A model generated the notes under the pieces. The model did not search any database and was not told the origin of the DNA. It saw only the letters and a list, made by a program, of their open reading frames with translations. 64,000 nt of DNA from Acidobacteriota bacterium (lineage in GTDB: Bacteria > Acidobacteriota > Holophagae > Holophagales > Holophagaceae), in contig JACPUT010000005.1 in NCBI GenBank assembly GCA_016192145.1, forward strand, positions 124,001-188,000, read 5' to 3'. Of this stretch, positions 1,470-41,632 are shown piece by piece; position 1 is the first letter of the stretch; the number at the start of each line of letters is the position of its first letter. Position numbers and translations under genes: made by a program.

Positions 1470-1564
1470 CCCCACAGCCTAACCGTTAGGAGGGCATTCC
1501 CAGCCCCTCCCCCCCGCCGGAAGGCAATCGAGCCTACATTGGGGCGACTCCCCCGAGGCCGCCC

Positions 1565-3001
1565 ATGAATCGCTCCACCCCCGCCATTGCCTTCCCCTTC
1601 CCCCTCGCCCTCGCCCTCATCCTGGGCTGCCGCGCCTCCGAAGACGGACCCGCCACCTCCCCGGACGGCGGCATCCCCACCTGCACGCTCACGGCCCCTG
1701 CCCCCTTCGCCACGGGGCTCACGGGGGCCATCCTCCTGACGGCCACCGCCGCCGATGACGTGGGGGTGGCGGGCGTGGATTTCCAAGTCGATGGCGCCGA
1801 TCTGGCCACGGTGACGAGCGCTCCCTACCAGACCACCCTTCCCAACACCGCTGCCTACGCGAGTGGTCAGCACGTCTTCCGCGCCCGCAGCCGGGATGCC
1901 GCCGGGAATGCGAGCCCCTGGTCCCAGGCCGTCGTGAGCTTCGGAGGCGCAGTGGCCCTGCCCTCCGGCTTCAACCTCGGCTCCGTGACGACCAGCCTCA
2001 CCAATGCCACCGCCATGACGGTGGCTCCCGATGGCCGGGTGTTCATCTGTGAGCAGGGCGGCGCGCTCCGGATCGTGAAGGCGGGTTCCTTGCTCAGCAC
2101 GCCCTTCGCCACGCTGGGCACCACGGCCACCGGGGAGCGGGGCCTCCTGGGCGTGGCCCTGGATCCGGCGTTCCCCTCCAATGGATTCGTGTACGTCTAC
2201 TACACCGCCGCCACTCCCACCACGCACAACCGGGTGAGCCGCCTCACGGCGGATATCGGCAACCCCGATGTGGCGATGCCCGGGAGCGAATCGGCCCTGA
2301 TCGATCTGCCCACCCTCAGCGCCACCAACCACAACGGCGGCGCCCTCCAGTTCGGCCCCGACGGCAAGCTCTACGTGGCCACGGGAGAGAACGCCGTGCC
2401 CGCCAACGCCCCCCTGCTCACCACCACCCTCGGCAAGATCCTGCGGTTCAACGCCGACGCCAGCATCCCCGGCGACAACCCCTTCGTCGCCTCCACCATC
2501 GGCTTGAACCAGGCCATCTGGGCCCGGGGCCTCCGCAATCCCTTCTCCTTCGCCTTCCAGCCTGGCACCACCCTCATGCACATCAACGACGTGGGCCAGA
2601 GCACCTGGGAGGAGATCGACACGGGCGCCTCGGGCGCGGACTACGGCTGGCCCTCCACGGAAGGTCCCACCAGCGCCGCCGGGATCACGGCTCCCCGCTT
2701 CGCCTACGGCCACCCGTCCGCGCCGGCAGGGCAACCCGGGAGTACGGGCACCTTCCTCCAGGGCCTGGCCATCGTCGGCGCAGCCTTCGACGCCGCCGCC
2801 TCGCCGTGGCCCTCCGGGTACCACGGAAACTACTGGTTCGGGGACCTCACGGGGGGTTGGGTGGCCCGGATGCACCTCGGCAGCGGAAACGTGAGCACCT
2901 TCGCCACGGGCTTCAGCGGCCTGCGGGCGCTCGCCTTCGCGGGCGACGGCTCCCTCTACGTGCTCACCGCCTCCAGCCTCCAGAAGATCACCCACCCCTA
3001 G
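1565..3001 (+). CDS. Secreted PQQ-dependent sugar (glucose/sorbosone) dehydrogenase-like protein with N-terminal Ig-like domain
   Basis: Motifs GERGLLGVALDPAF, NHNGGALQFGPDGKLYVATGE, ARGLRNPFSFAFQPGT, DVGQSTWEEID; lipoprotein-like N-terminus. Confidence 0.85.
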   Translation: MNRSTPAIAFPFPLALALILGCRASEDGPATSPDGGIPTCTLTAPAPFATGLTGAILLTATAADDVGVAGVDFQVDGADLATVTSAPYQTTLPNTAAYASGQHVFRARSRDAAGNASPWSQAVVSFGGAVALPSGFNLGSVTTSLTNATAMTVAPDGRVFICEQGGALRIVKAGSLLSTPFATLGTTATGERGLLGVALDPAFPSNGFVYVYYTAATPTTHNRVSRLTADIGNPDVAMPGSESALIDLPTLSATNHNGGALQFGPDGKLYVATGENAVPANAPLLTTTLGKILRFNADASIPGDNPFVASTIGLNQAIWARGLRNPFSFAFQPGTTLMHINDVGQSTWEEIDTGASGADYGWPSTEGPTSAAGITAPRFAYGHPSAPAGQPGSTGTFLQGLAIVGAAFDAAASPWPSGYHGNYWFGDLTGGWVARMHLGSGNVSTFATGFSGLRALAFAGDGSLYVLTASSLQKITHP

Positions 3002-4175: not shown

Positions 4176-4201
4176 GGTACGGCCCATTCGGACCCCGGTT
4201 T

Positions 4202-4523
4202 GGAACGCGAATGGCGCGAATAAAAGCGCGAAGAGCGCGAATAAAAGATAAAGAAACAGGGCTCTGAATGGGCCTGCCTTTCTTCGCGGGCATCGTGCCC
4301 CGGAATGAACGGCACCGTCCGGGGCCACCCCGCTTTCCAGGCTAGGGGCCGAGCCCTCCCCACCGAGCAGGCCCTCCCTTCCCGGGGCGGGCGCCAGCGG
4401 GGCCCTGAAGCCCTGCCAGCGCCCGCCCCGGGAAGTGCGCCGACCTCGTCGGCGCAGGCCGAAGGCCGGAGGGCCCAATGCCCGAAGCATCATTCGCGAG
4501 GCGCGCAGCGCCCTTCGCGTTCC
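4202..4523 (+). repeat. Dispersed structured repeat, copy A
   Basis: Near-identical to 5283-5603 (offset about 1080 bp); termini GGAACGCGAA/TTCGCGTTCC; hairpin arms 4378-4394/4419-4435 (17 bp perfect) and hairpin 4436-4456. Confidence 0.92.
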
Positions 4524-5254: not shown

Positions 5255-5282
5255 GGGTGCGGCAGATGCGGGCAGCCGAAGT

Positions 5283-5603
5283 GGAACGCGAATGGCGCGA
5301 ATAAAAGCGCGAAGAGCGCGAAAAAAGATAAAGAAACAGAGCTCTGAATGGGCCTGCTTTCCTTCGCGGGCATCGTGCCCCGGAATGAGCGGCACAGACC
5401 GGAACCATCCCGCTCTCCGAGCCAGGAGCCAAGCCCTCCCCACCGGGCAGGCCCTCCCTTCCCGGGGCGGGCGCCAGCGGGGTCCTGAAGCCCCGCCAGC
5501 GCCCGCCCCGGGAAGTGCGCCGACCCCGTCGGCGCAGGCCGAAGGCCGGAGGGCCCAATGCCCGAAGCATCCTTCGCGAGGCGCGCAGCGCCCTTCGCGT
5601 TCC
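5283..5603 (+). repeat. Dispersed structured repeat, copy B
   Basis: Same termini and internal hairpin arms (5458-5474/5499-5515) as copy A. Confidence 0.92.
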
Positions 5604-8731: not shown

Positions 8732-8746
8732 GTTCGGGCACCGTTG

Positions 8747-9047
8747 GGAACGCGAATGGCGCGAATAACAGATAAAAAAACGGAGCTCTGAATGGGCTTG
8801 CATTTCTTCGCGGGCATCATGCCCCAAAATGAACGGCACCGTTTGGAGCCACCCCGCCTTCCGAGCCAGGGGCCAAGCCCTCCCCACCGAGCAGGCCCTC
8901 CCTTCCCGGGGCGGGCGCAAGCGGGGCCCTCAAGCCCCGCCGGCGCCCGCCCCGGGAAGTGCGCCGACCTCGTCGGCGCAGGCCGAAGGCCGGAGGGCCC
9001 ACCGCCCGAAGCCTCATTCGCGAGGCGCGCAGCGCCCTTCGCGTTCC
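8747..9047 (+). repeat. Dispersed structured repeat, copy C
   Basis: Same termini; hairpin arms 8902-8918/8943-8959; lacks about 20 bp of the AT-containing 5' segment. Confidence 0.9.
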
Positions 9048-12478: not shown

Positions 12479-12528
12479 GTGTTGCCCGCGCGAATACCTG
12501 GAATCTTCAATAGGCTCGCGGGCAACAC
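12479..12528. terminator. 12-bp inverted repeat between convergent genes, candidate terminator
   Basis: GTGTTGCCCGCG (12479-12490) / CGCGGGCAACAC (12517-12528). Confidence 0.45.
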
Positions 12529-12617
12529 GTGGCGGGGGATTGGGGGCCTGCCAGTGCCCCGATGGAAGGAGACCTCGCCAGCCTTCTCCAAGCCCCAGGC
12601 CTTTCCGGCGAGGCAGG

Positions 12618-16900: not shown

Positions 16901-17719
16901 TTATCCCTTGATCCCGATCACATCCCCTTGCCCCGGGCCCTCCGAATCCAAGGCCCGGAACCGGGCGTCGGCAGGGATTTGCAGGCCAAACACCCGATCC
17001 AGCACCTCCGTCACATCCTCCCGGGCCAGGTCACGAACCTCCCATCCACCCGGCTGATCCACCTCCAATTTGAGGTTCCGGAGGATGTGCCGGGCCGCCA
17101 AGGTGGTCCGCTGGGCGGTGAGCGTGAGCAGGAAGCGGCTGTCCGGGTGGGTGCTCGTGTACCAATTGGCCATCGCGAAATCCACCTCCGGCCGGGGCTC
17201 CGGGAGGAAGGCGTAGAGGTCGGCCCAGGTTTGCCCCGCGAGGCCCTGCAGCACCCGCAAGGGCCCTTCGGGAATCACGCGGAAGGTCCAGCGCCCCGCC
17301 GTCACCACCTCCCCATCCATGGGCACGGGGCGCAGCGGGCCGCCGCCCCCAAAGCCCACGTCACAGAGCCACTCCCGCCCCTCCACCCGCACCTGCAGCA
17401 GCATGTGGGTGCGGGGCAGCACCAGCTCCGTGCCCACCCGCACCCGGGCCTCGAAGGCTTCCACCCCAAAGCCCACGGATTCCAGGGCCGCTCGAAACAG
17501 GGTGTTCTGCTCGAAGCAGTACCCGCCGCGCCCGCCCCGGACCAGCTTCGCTTCCAGATCGGGCAGCTTCAGGGAGATCCCGCGCCCCATCTGGATATCG
17601 AGGTTCTCGAAGGGGATGGCGAGGGCATGGGCCTGGTGGAGGTCCATCAGCGCTTGCAGGGAGGGAGCGGCTGGCGCGGGAATGCCCAGGCGGGTGAGGT
17701 AGTCGTCCAGGTGGATCAT
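16901..17719 (-). CDS. Arylamine N-acetyltransferase
   Basis: HALAIPFENLDIQMGRGISL, RGGRGGYCFEQNTLFRAALES, RTHMLLQV...WLCDVGFGGGGPLRP. Confidence 0.92.
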   Translation of the reverse strand: MIHLDDYLTRLGIPAPAAPSLQALMDLHQAHALAIPFENLDIQMGRGISLKLPDLEAKLVRGGRGGYCFEQNTLFRAALESVGFGVEAFEARVRVGTELVLPRTHMLLQVRVEGREWLCDVGFGGGGPLRPVPMDGEVVTAGRWTFRVIPEGPLRVLQGLAGQTWADLYAFLPEPRPEVDFAMANWYTSTHPDSRFLLTLTAQRTTLAARHILRNLKLEVDQPGGWEVRDLAREDVTEVLDRVFGLQIPADARFRALDSEGPGQGDVIGIKG

Positions 17720-17782
17720 AGCCCCAGGGTACGCCCACCCCAGGGGAGGCCGATGGACCCGCCCTCCTGCGATACTGCCCCC

Positions 17783-18316
17783 ATGACCCTGCCCCGCGAT
17801 TTCTGGCGTTGGACCGCGCTCACCCTGCTCTGGATCTGGTTCTCCATCAGCGCCTGGGTGGTGGTGGTGCAGGCCTTCGTGGTGGTCTGGGATAGCCCCG
17901 GCCAGTGGCGCATGCCCGGCGTCTCCAAGGTGACCGTGAAGGTGGTGGGCACCGACGAGGAGGGCAAGATCTCCGGTTACGTGTGGGCGGAGAAAGAGGG
18001 CAAGGAAGTGCAGCTCCGCCTCTTCCGGGAGGAGGCCCTGAAGCTCGCCGTGGACGACGAGATCTGGGTGCTCCACAACTACCGGAAGGATGGCCACCGC
18101 CCCAATGAGTTCCTCCTGGGCCCCTGGCGCCTCCTGGGCGAATACCCGGAACCGCTCATGGTCGCGTCCGCCTGGGCGATCTACCTCCTCCGCCGCCGCC
18201 AGAGGGCCGAGGCCAAGGCCCTCGCCGATGCGCCCAATCCGAATCGCAAGGTGTGGAAGGATGAGTTCCACAGCCGGGCGGAGCGGTTCACGAAGAAGGA
18301 TGATCCCGCGCCCTGA
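17783..18316 (+). CDS. DUF3592-like membrane-anchored protein of unknown function
   Basis: Two hydrophobic segments; ORF with plausible start/stop. Confidence 0.5.
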   Translation: MTLPRDFWRWTALTLLWIWFSISAWVVVVQAFVVVWDSPGQWRMPGVSKVTVKVVGTDEEGKISGYVWAEKEGKEVQLRLFREEALKLAVDDEIWVLHNYRKDGHRPNEFLLGPWRLLGEYPEPLMVASAWAIYLLRRRQRAEAKALADAPNPNRKVWKDEFHSRAERFTKKDDPAP

Positions 18317-18334
18317 GGGGCTGGAAAAGATCCC

Positions 18335-18640
18335 CGCGAAGGGCGCTGCGCGCCACGCGAATGGGCACCTTCAGGAAAGCCCCTCCGGCCTTCGGCCCGC
18401 GCCGACGGCGTCGGCGCGCCTCCGGGGCCGGGCACCCGCGGCGCCCTGAAGCGCCGGGGGTGCCCGGTCCCGGAGGGGAGGGGCGGATATGCGGGAAGGC
18501 TGTGTCCCGGCGGGCGGCATTCGAGCTGAGGCTCAGATCAACTGCCTCACGGTCCACGAGGCCCGCGAAGGGGGCACGGATTTTCCGTCATCCGTATCCC
18601 CTTCGCGCGCTTCGCGTTTTTATTCGCGCTCTTCGCGTTC
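18335..18640 (-). repeat. Diverged inverted copy (copy D) of the dispersed structured repeat
   Basis: Shares GCGAAGGGCGCTGCGCGCC.CGCGAATG, GGCCTTCGGCC, GCGCCGAC..GTCGGCGC and CGCGTTTTTATTCGCGCTCTTCGCGTTC with the reverse complement of copies A-C; its own hairpin arms are 18419-18437/18458-18476. Confidence 0.8.
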
Positions 18641-18695
18641 AGCTTTTCCCCAAACCGCCAGGGTGCTGCGTTCCCCGGGGCCTGCCCCGAAGGTC

Positions 18696-19247
18696 TCAGC
18701 CCCGCTGGGCCTCCCAGGCGGCGATATTCCGGCGGATCTGAGCGGCGTGCACCTCGAGGTGTTCCGCGTAGATCTTGAACCAGTCGCCGTCCGTGTAGGC
18801 CCCGCTGTGGGTGTGGCGGCCCACCTTGTTGAAGGCCGACTCCGGCAGCCGCCGCAGGCAGGCGGCCGTGTTGGCCCGCACGGCCTCGATGGTGCGGAAG
18901 GCGAGCTCCACATCGTGGGCGTGATAGTCGAAGGTGCGGGCCCACACGTTTTCGTCGTAGCCCACGATGAGGGGTTCCGCCTCCGCCAGCACGAGGCGGA
19001 TGCGCGTGTGGCCGTAAGCTTCAGAGTCGGCGCAGTGGACGATGACCTCGTGGGCGCTCCATCGAACGGGACGCTGCGCGTCCCTCCCGCTCGCTTCCGC
19101 TTGCGGAGATGGAGCCTCCCATTTGCCTTCGGCGGGCCGCCACTGGCGCGCCTCGGGCGGCACCTCCGCCCAGGCCTGTCGGAGAAGGGCCGGGCCCGCC
19201 TCGAAGCGGTCGAGGAATCCTGCGCGTTCGGATGGGGTGAGGGACAT
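18696..19247 (-). CDS. DinB-superfamily (DUF664-type) protein with an apparent in-frame insertion
   Basis: MSLTPSERAGFLDRFEAGPALLRQAWAEV...WRPAEGKW...WSAHEVIVHCADSEA; C-terminal HLEVHAAQIRRNI. Confidence 0.8.
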   Translation of the reverse strand: MSLTPSERAGFLDRFEAGPALLRQAWAEVPPEARQWRPAEGKWEAPSPQAEASGRDAQRPVRWSAHEVIVHCADSEAYGHTRIRLVLAEAEPLIVGYDENVWARTFDYHAHDVELAFRTIEAVRANTAACLRRLPESAFNKVGRHTHSGAYTDGDWFKIYAEHLEVHAAQIRRNIAAWEAQRG

Positions 19248-21960: not shown

Positions 21961-22009
21961 ACGGCGGATTCAACCCGGATCGTGCGATTGGCTCTGGGCT
22001 TTCGGCTTT

Positions 22010-22115
22010 GGGCTTTCGGCTCTAGGCTCTAGCTGGGCACGGCAATGTCGGTCGATTCACCTTTGGACGGACCAATGCAAAGCCGGAACCGGCAAGAGCC
22101 TAGAGCCGAAAGCCC
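22010..22115. repeat. Inverted repeat, 21-bp perfect arms
   Basis: GGGCTTTCGGCTCTAGGCTCT (22010-22030) / AGAGCCTAGAGCCGAAAGCCC (22095-22115). Confidence 0.85.
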
Positions 22116-22154
22116 GAAGCCCACTCCATGCAAACCCAACTGCACGATCCGGGC

Positions 22155-33124: not shown

Positions 33125-33292
33125 TGCACCGGCAGCCAAATAACACCACCCGCCGGGAGTTGCTGCCGGTGCACTTCCATGGGGGCATGGCCCCCTCTGG
33201 CGCAGAACAAAGCTGCGCTTGATTCTGCTGTCACCCCCTTGGGGGTACTGCCGTACCCCCAAACCCCCGCCACGTGTGGCGATTAAGGCCCT
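33124..33292. other. Chain of six short hairpins in a convergent intergenic region
   Basis: GTGCACCGGCAGC/GCTGCCGGTGCAC, GGGGGC-ATG-GCCCCC, GCGCAG-N7-CTGCGC, ACCCCC-TT-GGGGGT, GGGGGTAC-TGCC-GTACCCCC, GCCAC-GT-GTGGC. Confidence 0.75.
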
Positions 33293-41311: not shown

Positions 41312-41408
41312 AGGCGAAAGGTTGATCCCGCATTCTGCGGTTGCATGGCTCCTTCGGGCTATAGGCTCTTGCCGTCGCGGGCGGGGCCCGAGTCAGCGAA
41401 AGCCTGGA

Positions 41409-41480
41409 AACCGCGAATGACGCGAATTCACGCGAATGAACCGGAATTCCCATTCGCGTAAATTCGCGTCATTCGCGGTT
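41409..41480. repeat. Long palindrome, 30-bp arms
   Basis: AACCGCGAATGACGCGAATTCACGCGAATG (41409-41438) / CATTCGCGTAAATTCGCGTCATTCGCGGTT (41451-41480), one mismatch. Confidence 0.93.
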
Positions 41481-41632
41481 CCCATTCCGTTCGAGAACTG
41501 GTCCAAGGGATATTTCAAAACCGGATCTGCCCCGGCCCTCGGAGATGGGGGAGGTTGAAGGCCTCCGTTCTTTCCAACTCCACTGGCCTCCACCTTCGGA
41601 GGTCTTTTCGTGCCCCCACCTCCGGAGCTCCC

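Follow-up and report, generated by a model that had tools for sequence, protein, structure and literature searches.

A dispersed Acidobacteriota repeat with a four-way-junction core conserved in shape rather than in sequence

What kind of element lies between two convergent genes at positions 18335-18640 of the DNA studied here, and why is its fold retained while its sequence changes? The window, a stretch of 64,000 nucleotides, corresponds to C5:124001-188000 of the genome of an Acidobacteriota bacterium of the family Holophagaceae (hereafter the own genome). A first-pass annotation had described the segment as a diverged fourth copy of a repeat, in which both arms of the main stem had changed with retention of pairing. 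When both strands were read, all of the strings quoted in its support were found where it had placed them: GGCCTTCGGCC at 18387-18397, GCGCCGAC/GTCGGCGC within 18398-18418, and the main stem CCTCCGGGGCCGGGCACCC/GGGTGCCCGGTCCCGGAGG within 18419-18476, with one G.T pair (A.C on the other strand). The count of four copies was also borne out by the window cores listed below. As had been reported, the segment lies between convergent gene ends; the frame of a predicted membrane protein on the plus strand ends at 18316 and that of a DinB_2 protein on the minus strand ends at 18696.

Gene calls at this locus are rough. At 16901-18316, an arylamine N-acetyltransferase (NAT) gene on the minus strand is overlapped by the membrane protein gene, and the gene caller stretched the NAT gene across the latter. 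In the only other genome of the same genus (G001), the NAT gene directly abuts DinB; both the extra gene and the element are absent, and no clean junction is readable. The focal element consists of the following parts.

18335..18640, minus strand: focal element; its forward orientation is the minus strand, and the family aligns over this span
18601..18640, minus strand: left arm, four CGCGAA units as 9-nt pairs with an A-rich spacer between them
18379..18484, minus strand: core, the four-way junction P1-P2-P3-P4-P1' (covariance models; fold z = -7.5)
18477..18484, minus strand: 5' side of P1, GCCCCTCC (fold)
18419..18476, minus strand: P2, a long hypervariable hairpin of 58 nt, the main stem of the first-pass annotation (fold and covariation)
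18398..18418, minus strand: P3 hairpin, CGCGCCGAC...GTCGGCGCG (fold and covariation)
18387..18397, minus strand: P4 hairpin, GGCC-GAA-GGCC (fold and covariation)
18379..18386, minus strand: 3' side of P1, GGAGGGGC (fold); both sides of P1 differ from the GGCCCTCC/GGAGGGCC copies
18335..18363, minus strand: right arm, a pair of TTCGCG units separated by a small GGCGC-GCA-GCGCC hairpin

Flanks of the AAAAG/CTTTT type at 18323-18330 and 18643-18647 may lengthen the element slightly. Repeat searches, inverted-repeat searches and covariance models gave these further members in the window.

4201..4523, plus strand: second copy, core 4370-4475 (repeat search, covariance model)
5282..5603, plus strand: third copy, core 5450-5555 (repeat search, covariance model)
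8746..9047, plus strand: a further copy, core 8894-8999 (repeat search, covariance model)
41405..41484, no strand assigned: short form of arms only, with inverted CGCGAA units and without the core (inverted-repeat search)

The three plus-strand copies are about 90% alike and, in direct and inverted repeat searches, stand in the orientation opposite to that of the focal copy. Sequence similarity alone gave 12 related copies in the whole own genome (3.8 Mb, 19 contigs). The covariance model added others, giving about 20 in the 855 kb of the own genome that were read completely.

The core of this family is not one hairpin. It is a four-way junction formed by a closing stem, P1, a long hairpin, P2, and two shorter hairpins, P3 and P4. 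The first-pass annotation had overlooked P1, which joins the three hairpins into one junction. This branching was present in the minimum-energy fold of all 41 copies studied, and in 34 of the 41 the junction contained no unpaired bases. In the 41 copies, P2 spans 56-60 nt. P3 is shorter, at about 13-25 nt, and P4 is in almost every copy a triloop hairpin of 11 or 13 nt. The focal copy shows the same P1-P2-P3-P4 architecture with a P2 within this range. Its core folds at -98.6 kcal/mol, a value equalled by none of 200 shuffled sequences. P1 reads GGCCCTCC/GGAGGGCC in most own-genome copies, and relative to these the focal P1 is compensated as well. No conserved unpaired bases were found in the core; only the shape is conserved.

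The focal core scored 77.3, 68.0 and 48.1 bits with the covariance models R1, R2 and R3, respectively. Model R3, which was built from the sequences of other genomes only, ranked the focal copy fourth in the window (E = 2.2e-7), behind the three other copies.

Conservation of the fold rather than the sequence, as had been proposed, was analyzed by collecting the copies, fitting a covariance model and measuring covariation. When the 12 own-genome cores were aligned by sequence alone, both sides had changed in 27 of the 43 base pairs, and 95.5% of the cells still paired. Across a set of 49 cores drawn from several genomes, two-sided variation was seen at 42 of the 43 pairs; covariation was 0.650, as compared with 0.160 for shuffled alignments and no more than 0.110 when partners were slid, although this alignment was fitted to the model, which favours its covariation figure. 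In the set without own-genome sequences, 40 of the 43 pairs varied on both sides, with a covariation of 0.454 against 0.134 for shuffled alignments. For the first two alignments, none of 500 shuffles reached any of the measures. Covariation was thus overwhelming in all three sets, and the proposal stands. The accompanying description, a functional structured RNA or DNA hairpin, was correct as to a conserved fold; the RNA reading is not favoured by the data below, and the single main stem has to be replaced by a four-way junction within a mobile element.

The distance between copies showed how the fold evolves. Among copies more than 85% identical, the compensated share of the changed stem pairs was 0-0.38; among copies less than 60% identical, it was 0.79-0.88. 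Because this share rises with distance, single copies decay like any other sequence, and the lineages that spread keep their pairing. The elements form a dispersed family whose fold is conserved in shape and not in sequence. The compensation pattern argues against pure correction of one arm by the other and favours the view that the fold is under selection in the lineage that spreads. In Geothrix sp. C12 (L198), the cores at 1482-1577 and 2105-2206 are nearly alike in P1, P3 and P4, and their P2 hairpins are wholly different yet well paired, as if P2 had been replaced as a block.

The strand on which the constraint acts was considered from the mismatches. In the outer stems, 26 G.U and 29 A.C oppositions were counted (p = 0.79), and a second count gave 30 and 35 (p = 0.62); decay after insertion weakens this comparison, and the equality partly reflects neutral decay. 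A constraint on one RNA strand should favour G.U, yet G.U was no commoner than A.C. This parity points to DNA or to both strands, not to one RNA. The curated covariance models of Rfam gave no match for the element; the sole match in the window was a tRNA.

All 41 copies studied were intergenic, mostly at the 3' ends of genes. Gaps between divergent genes were avoided: by rough gene calls, 1 of 23 own-genome copies lay in such a gap, whereas 22 of the 68 gaps of 100 bp or more that lack an element are divergent (p = 0.006). This avoidance would also suit a role at RNA 3' ends. With respect to adjacent genes, copies point in either direction (15 versus 10 for tandem copies), and no gene was found repeatedly beside the junction copies.

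The core is enclosed by two inverted arms whose repeat units are spaced about 9 nt apart. The unit is CGCGAAG in the focal copy, which carries four CGCGAA units on the left and two on the right in inverted orientation, and CACGAAG, CACAGAG or CACCAAG in others. The two arms of one element usually share the same unit (score of 36 for arms of the same element versus 23 for mismatched arms). In three recent own-genome copies, which share about 90-95% identity, the ends fall precisely at GGAACGCG/CGCGTTCC and so coincide with the arms. The arm pattern ACCACRRAGNNCACRRAG was found in 86 of 297 Acidobacteriota genomes, representing 51 of 167 genera, and the reversed control gave almost no matches; in one small Acidobacteriota class the pattern was not found.

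The core was also found in Geothrix and other Holophagaceae. A search of the 297 Acidobacteriota genomes with model R2 returned 13 family members and two others (L324 and L325), with 13 candidates scored per genome, so that absence from this search is weak evidence. L324 and L325 were rejected as members, since each forms one long hairpin and not a junction. Pattern-scan matches outside Holophagaceae, about half of those inspected, were likewise rejected, as they do not fold into a junction.

Movement of the arms and core as DNA was observed in relatives. The uncultured Holophagaceae genome MJ3_bin-213 contains a burst of near-identical copies with the ends CCTGGTTATCGGCC...GGCCGATAACCAGG. Perfect 8-bp target duplications flank 24 of 40 elements with paired ends (mean 6.8/8 versus 2.7 for mismatched pairs), and no such signal was found in these elements at any other width. 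Many of them contain the core. Genome G083 harbours three IS1595-transposase transposons (DDE_Tnp_IS1595, E = 1.3e-30) with the same ends and perfect 8-bp duplications; IS1595-family elements such as ISApl4 are reported to produce 8-bp direct repeats (PMC12561309). Since the ends and the 8-bp duplications are shared with autonomous IS1595 transposons, the arms and core travel within IS1595-type MITEs in Geothrix relatives. In G083, an IS1595 transposon bears a passenger gene of 264 aa (L283:2482-3276) without a Pfam match. In Geothrix genomes G061 and G063 (L334-L349), IS1595-type elements often share one 8-bp target, TCCTGTTA/TAACAGGA; it matches the AACAGGAT units of a different arm family, an instance of nested insertion into arms.

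The IS1595 transposase (PF12762) is present in genomes G083, G063, G065, G082, G013 and G012; none was found in the own genome. Terminal inverted repeats of the CCTGNTTATCGGCNNNNCTCAGC type are present on the Geothrix copies. None was found on the window copies, and the whole own genome has three sites with one mismatch, none of them paired. No target duplications were found at the own-genome copies at any offset. IS1595-type movement is therefore seen in relatives only, the window copies having neither IS1595 ends nor target duplications.

A candidate enzyme emerged from the arms. In two other Acidobacteriota genomes (G345 and G228), longer arm-bounded elements contain a gene for a 123-aa member of the GxxExxY family (TIGR04256; PF13366, PDDEXK_3), which belongs to the PD-(D/E)XK nuclease superfamily. 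These two genes were found via the arms; the genes examined in the own genome and on plasmids were selected independently of them. The portion of the own genome that was read contains two GxxExxY genes, each with arms on either side: the gene at C7:381.8k has arms of CGCGAA units, as in the focal copy, and the gene at C7:472.2k (C7:472170-472640; L472:12170-12640) has arms of another unit type (ACAGGATGA; AACAGGATGAACAGGATGGACAGGATT). Among eight plasmid records with a GxxExxY gene, four showed arms (Gemmatirosa, Bernardetia, Bacteroides and Sphingomonas) and four did not. The arm-bounded element of Sphingomonas sits between fabD and fabG. Among control genes, the same arm score was reached by one of the 417 on contig C7, namely EF-P, which lies between ordinary hairpins, and by none of the 44 on plasmids. 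The record of Gemmatirosa kalamazoonensis plasmid 1 (L489) has three GxxExxY places, and two complete palindromic arm elements with (C)CGCAGAGGA units flank a GxxExxY gene there.

Junction copies also adjoin this gene in Geothrix. In Geothrix sp. C12, the two cores described above, at 1482-1577 (minus) and 2105-2206 (plus), form inverted elements flanking a GxxExxY gene at 1661-2029. In Geothrix G014 (L318), a full element (core 1501-1610) and half of another come before a GxxExxY gene at 1844. Most junction copies are not adjacent to such a gene, and the clearest junction-gene-junction arrangement is a single locus. The residues D67, E77 and K79, which are expected to be catalytic, are invariant in all 12 GxxExxY proteins compared. 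No relative of solved structure was found by sequence. A single-sequence structure model was poor (pLDDT 57); its fold matches, Holliday resolvases (4tkd, 2eo0 and 2wiw) alongside unrelated acetyltransferases, were weak and not significant. No GxxExxY gene was found in viral contigs or phages; one query was a consensus-like sequence, and the conclusion rests on the natural sequence. A search of open-access journal papers gave nothing relevant to the arms, to GxxExxY/PF13366 or to an element of this kind. The association is correlative, and from sequence the GxxExxY protein may be the partner of the element.

Taken with the fold, these facts suggest that the focal segment is a mobile DNA element, non-autonomous and about 300 bp long, in which inverted arms built from 9-nt units enclose a junction core, and that it is served by a GxxExxY nuclease able to read DNA shape. 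We give this reading a probability of roughly 0.5. PD-(D/E)XK proteins include Holliday-junction resolvases that read junction shape, such as Hjc, RecU and T7 endonuclease I. Because only the shape of the core is conserved and the superfamily includes such resolvases, recognition of the core by GxxExxY would be the simplest reading. When single-stranded or extruded, the core would resemble a Holliday junction. The GxxExxY protein would recognise this shape in DNA, and perhaps the arms too, in the manner of PD-(D/E)XK junction resolvases, and would nick the element and start its movement. Copying or movement of the nicked element would follow, by analogy with the action of TnpA-REP on REPs. IS1595-type MITEs are a further vehicle, inside which the element hitch-hikes in some Geothrix.

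It is worth noting that there are other possible interpretations. A stable transcribed fold might be kept because it ends transcription or blocks 3'-to-5' RNA decay. The exclusively intergenic location, mostly at gene 3' ends and rarely in divergent gaps, the very stable fold and the AAAAG/CTTTT flanks of many copies, which resemble a two-way terminator, are all in keeping with such a structured RNA. A location at 3' ends is, however, typical of any tolerated repeat, and the lack of G.U excess, the occurrence of tandem copies in both orientations, the absence of conserved unpaired bases and the lack of an Rfam match weigh against it; we consider it improbable. It is less probable still that all copies, including those of the window, are old IS1595-type MITEs that have lost their ends, with the inner hairpins incidental. 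While the shared ends and 8-bp duplications in Geothrix and the existence of autonomous partners fit this idea, it leaves the conservation of the fold unexplained. Nor does it accord with the three recent own-genome copies, which end at the arms with neither IS1595 ends nor duplications, with the lack of the transposase in the own genome, or with arms that occur phylum-wide without IS1595 ends.

Complementarity could also be maintained without selection on the fold, if template switching or gene conversion between the arms of one copy kept the palindromes complementary. The equality of G.U and A.C, the long and perfect stems and the wholly different P2 of the two otherwise similar Geothrix sp. 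C12 elements would be explained in this way. Recent changes are, however, one-sided and stay uncorrected, and conserved lengths of all four helices with a perfect junction across genera would not be expected; we regard this mechanism as quite unlikely. The poorest candidate, to our minds a very remote one, is a strict REP/RAYT or integron attC type, in which a Y1 transposase or an integron integrase acts on the hairpins. The family is indeed palindromic, dispersed and intergenic, with structure more conserved than sequence. No Y1_Tnp or RAYT gene was found in 17 of 18 genomes, the own genome included, and identity with REP/RAYT was rejected on this ground.

Among the known systems close to the family are REP/REPIN sequences and their REPtrons (TnpA-REP, RAYT; PMC8266576, PMC3116915). 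Both are short palindromic, intergenic, non-autonomous repeats, and stem features matter for recognition in some REP systems. Copies of both adjoin the gene of a DNA-processing enzyme; the Geothrix sp. C12 locus has the layout of a REPtron (PMC8266576) with a different enzyme. A REP is, however, a hairpin of 16-40 nt, whereas here a four-way junction of some 106 nt forms the core within inverted arms of 9-nt units, the neighbour gene is the PD-(D/E)XK gene GxxExxY, and the own genome has no Y1 transposase. The REP guide tetranucleotide GTAG/GGAG sits 5' of the palindrome; here P1' begins with GGAG in many copies, on the 3' side of P4. The Geothrix elements resemble IS1595 MITEs in sharing autonomous IS1595 ends and 8-bp duplications (PMC12561309), and the window copies differ from these in having neither. 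Integron attC sites are compared by analogy only: four helices are present here, and no integrase link was found. In attC sites, a folded single strand with variable stem sequence is recognised by the integrase, and the site is a single hairpin with defined R and L boxes (GTTRRRY). We know of no MITE that conserves a multi-branch fold. In elements of the GxxExxY family (TIGR04256/PF13366), the gene is cargo between like arms, in the own genome too; the focal element carries no gene. The intervening sequences of 23S rRNA (PMC4990558) are similar in being small selfish elements with a small ORF, and differ in sitting in rRNA genes and in encoding another protein. The ends of these sequences pair into a stem. 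To our knowledge, they have no four-way-junction core.

A junction retained almost entirely for its shape, in which nearly all pairs covary, is rare evidence that the spread of a mobile element depends on folded DNA. The GxxExxY link, if true, would provide a testable function for a protein family that the literature searched does not explain, and would tie together the repeat families of many Acidobacteriota genomes. More tentatively, and with rather less confidence than the reading of the focal element, the family might represent a new class of mobile element, in which DNA that mimics a Holliday junction is mobilised by GxxExxY via its shape. The inverted CACAGAG/CACGAAG/CGCGAAG repeats across Acidobacteriota, and those around GxxExxY genes in three other phyla, would then be its ends.

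Two other repeats were noted in the window. At 22004-22121 there is another inverted repeat, whose 40-nt arms are 85% complementary and 38 nt apart, and whose sequence is unlike that of the junction family. The segments 12522-12565 and 33237-33280 form an inverted pair of 44 nt, 20 kb apart and rich in GGCGGGGG/CACGTG, possibly from another small repeat family.
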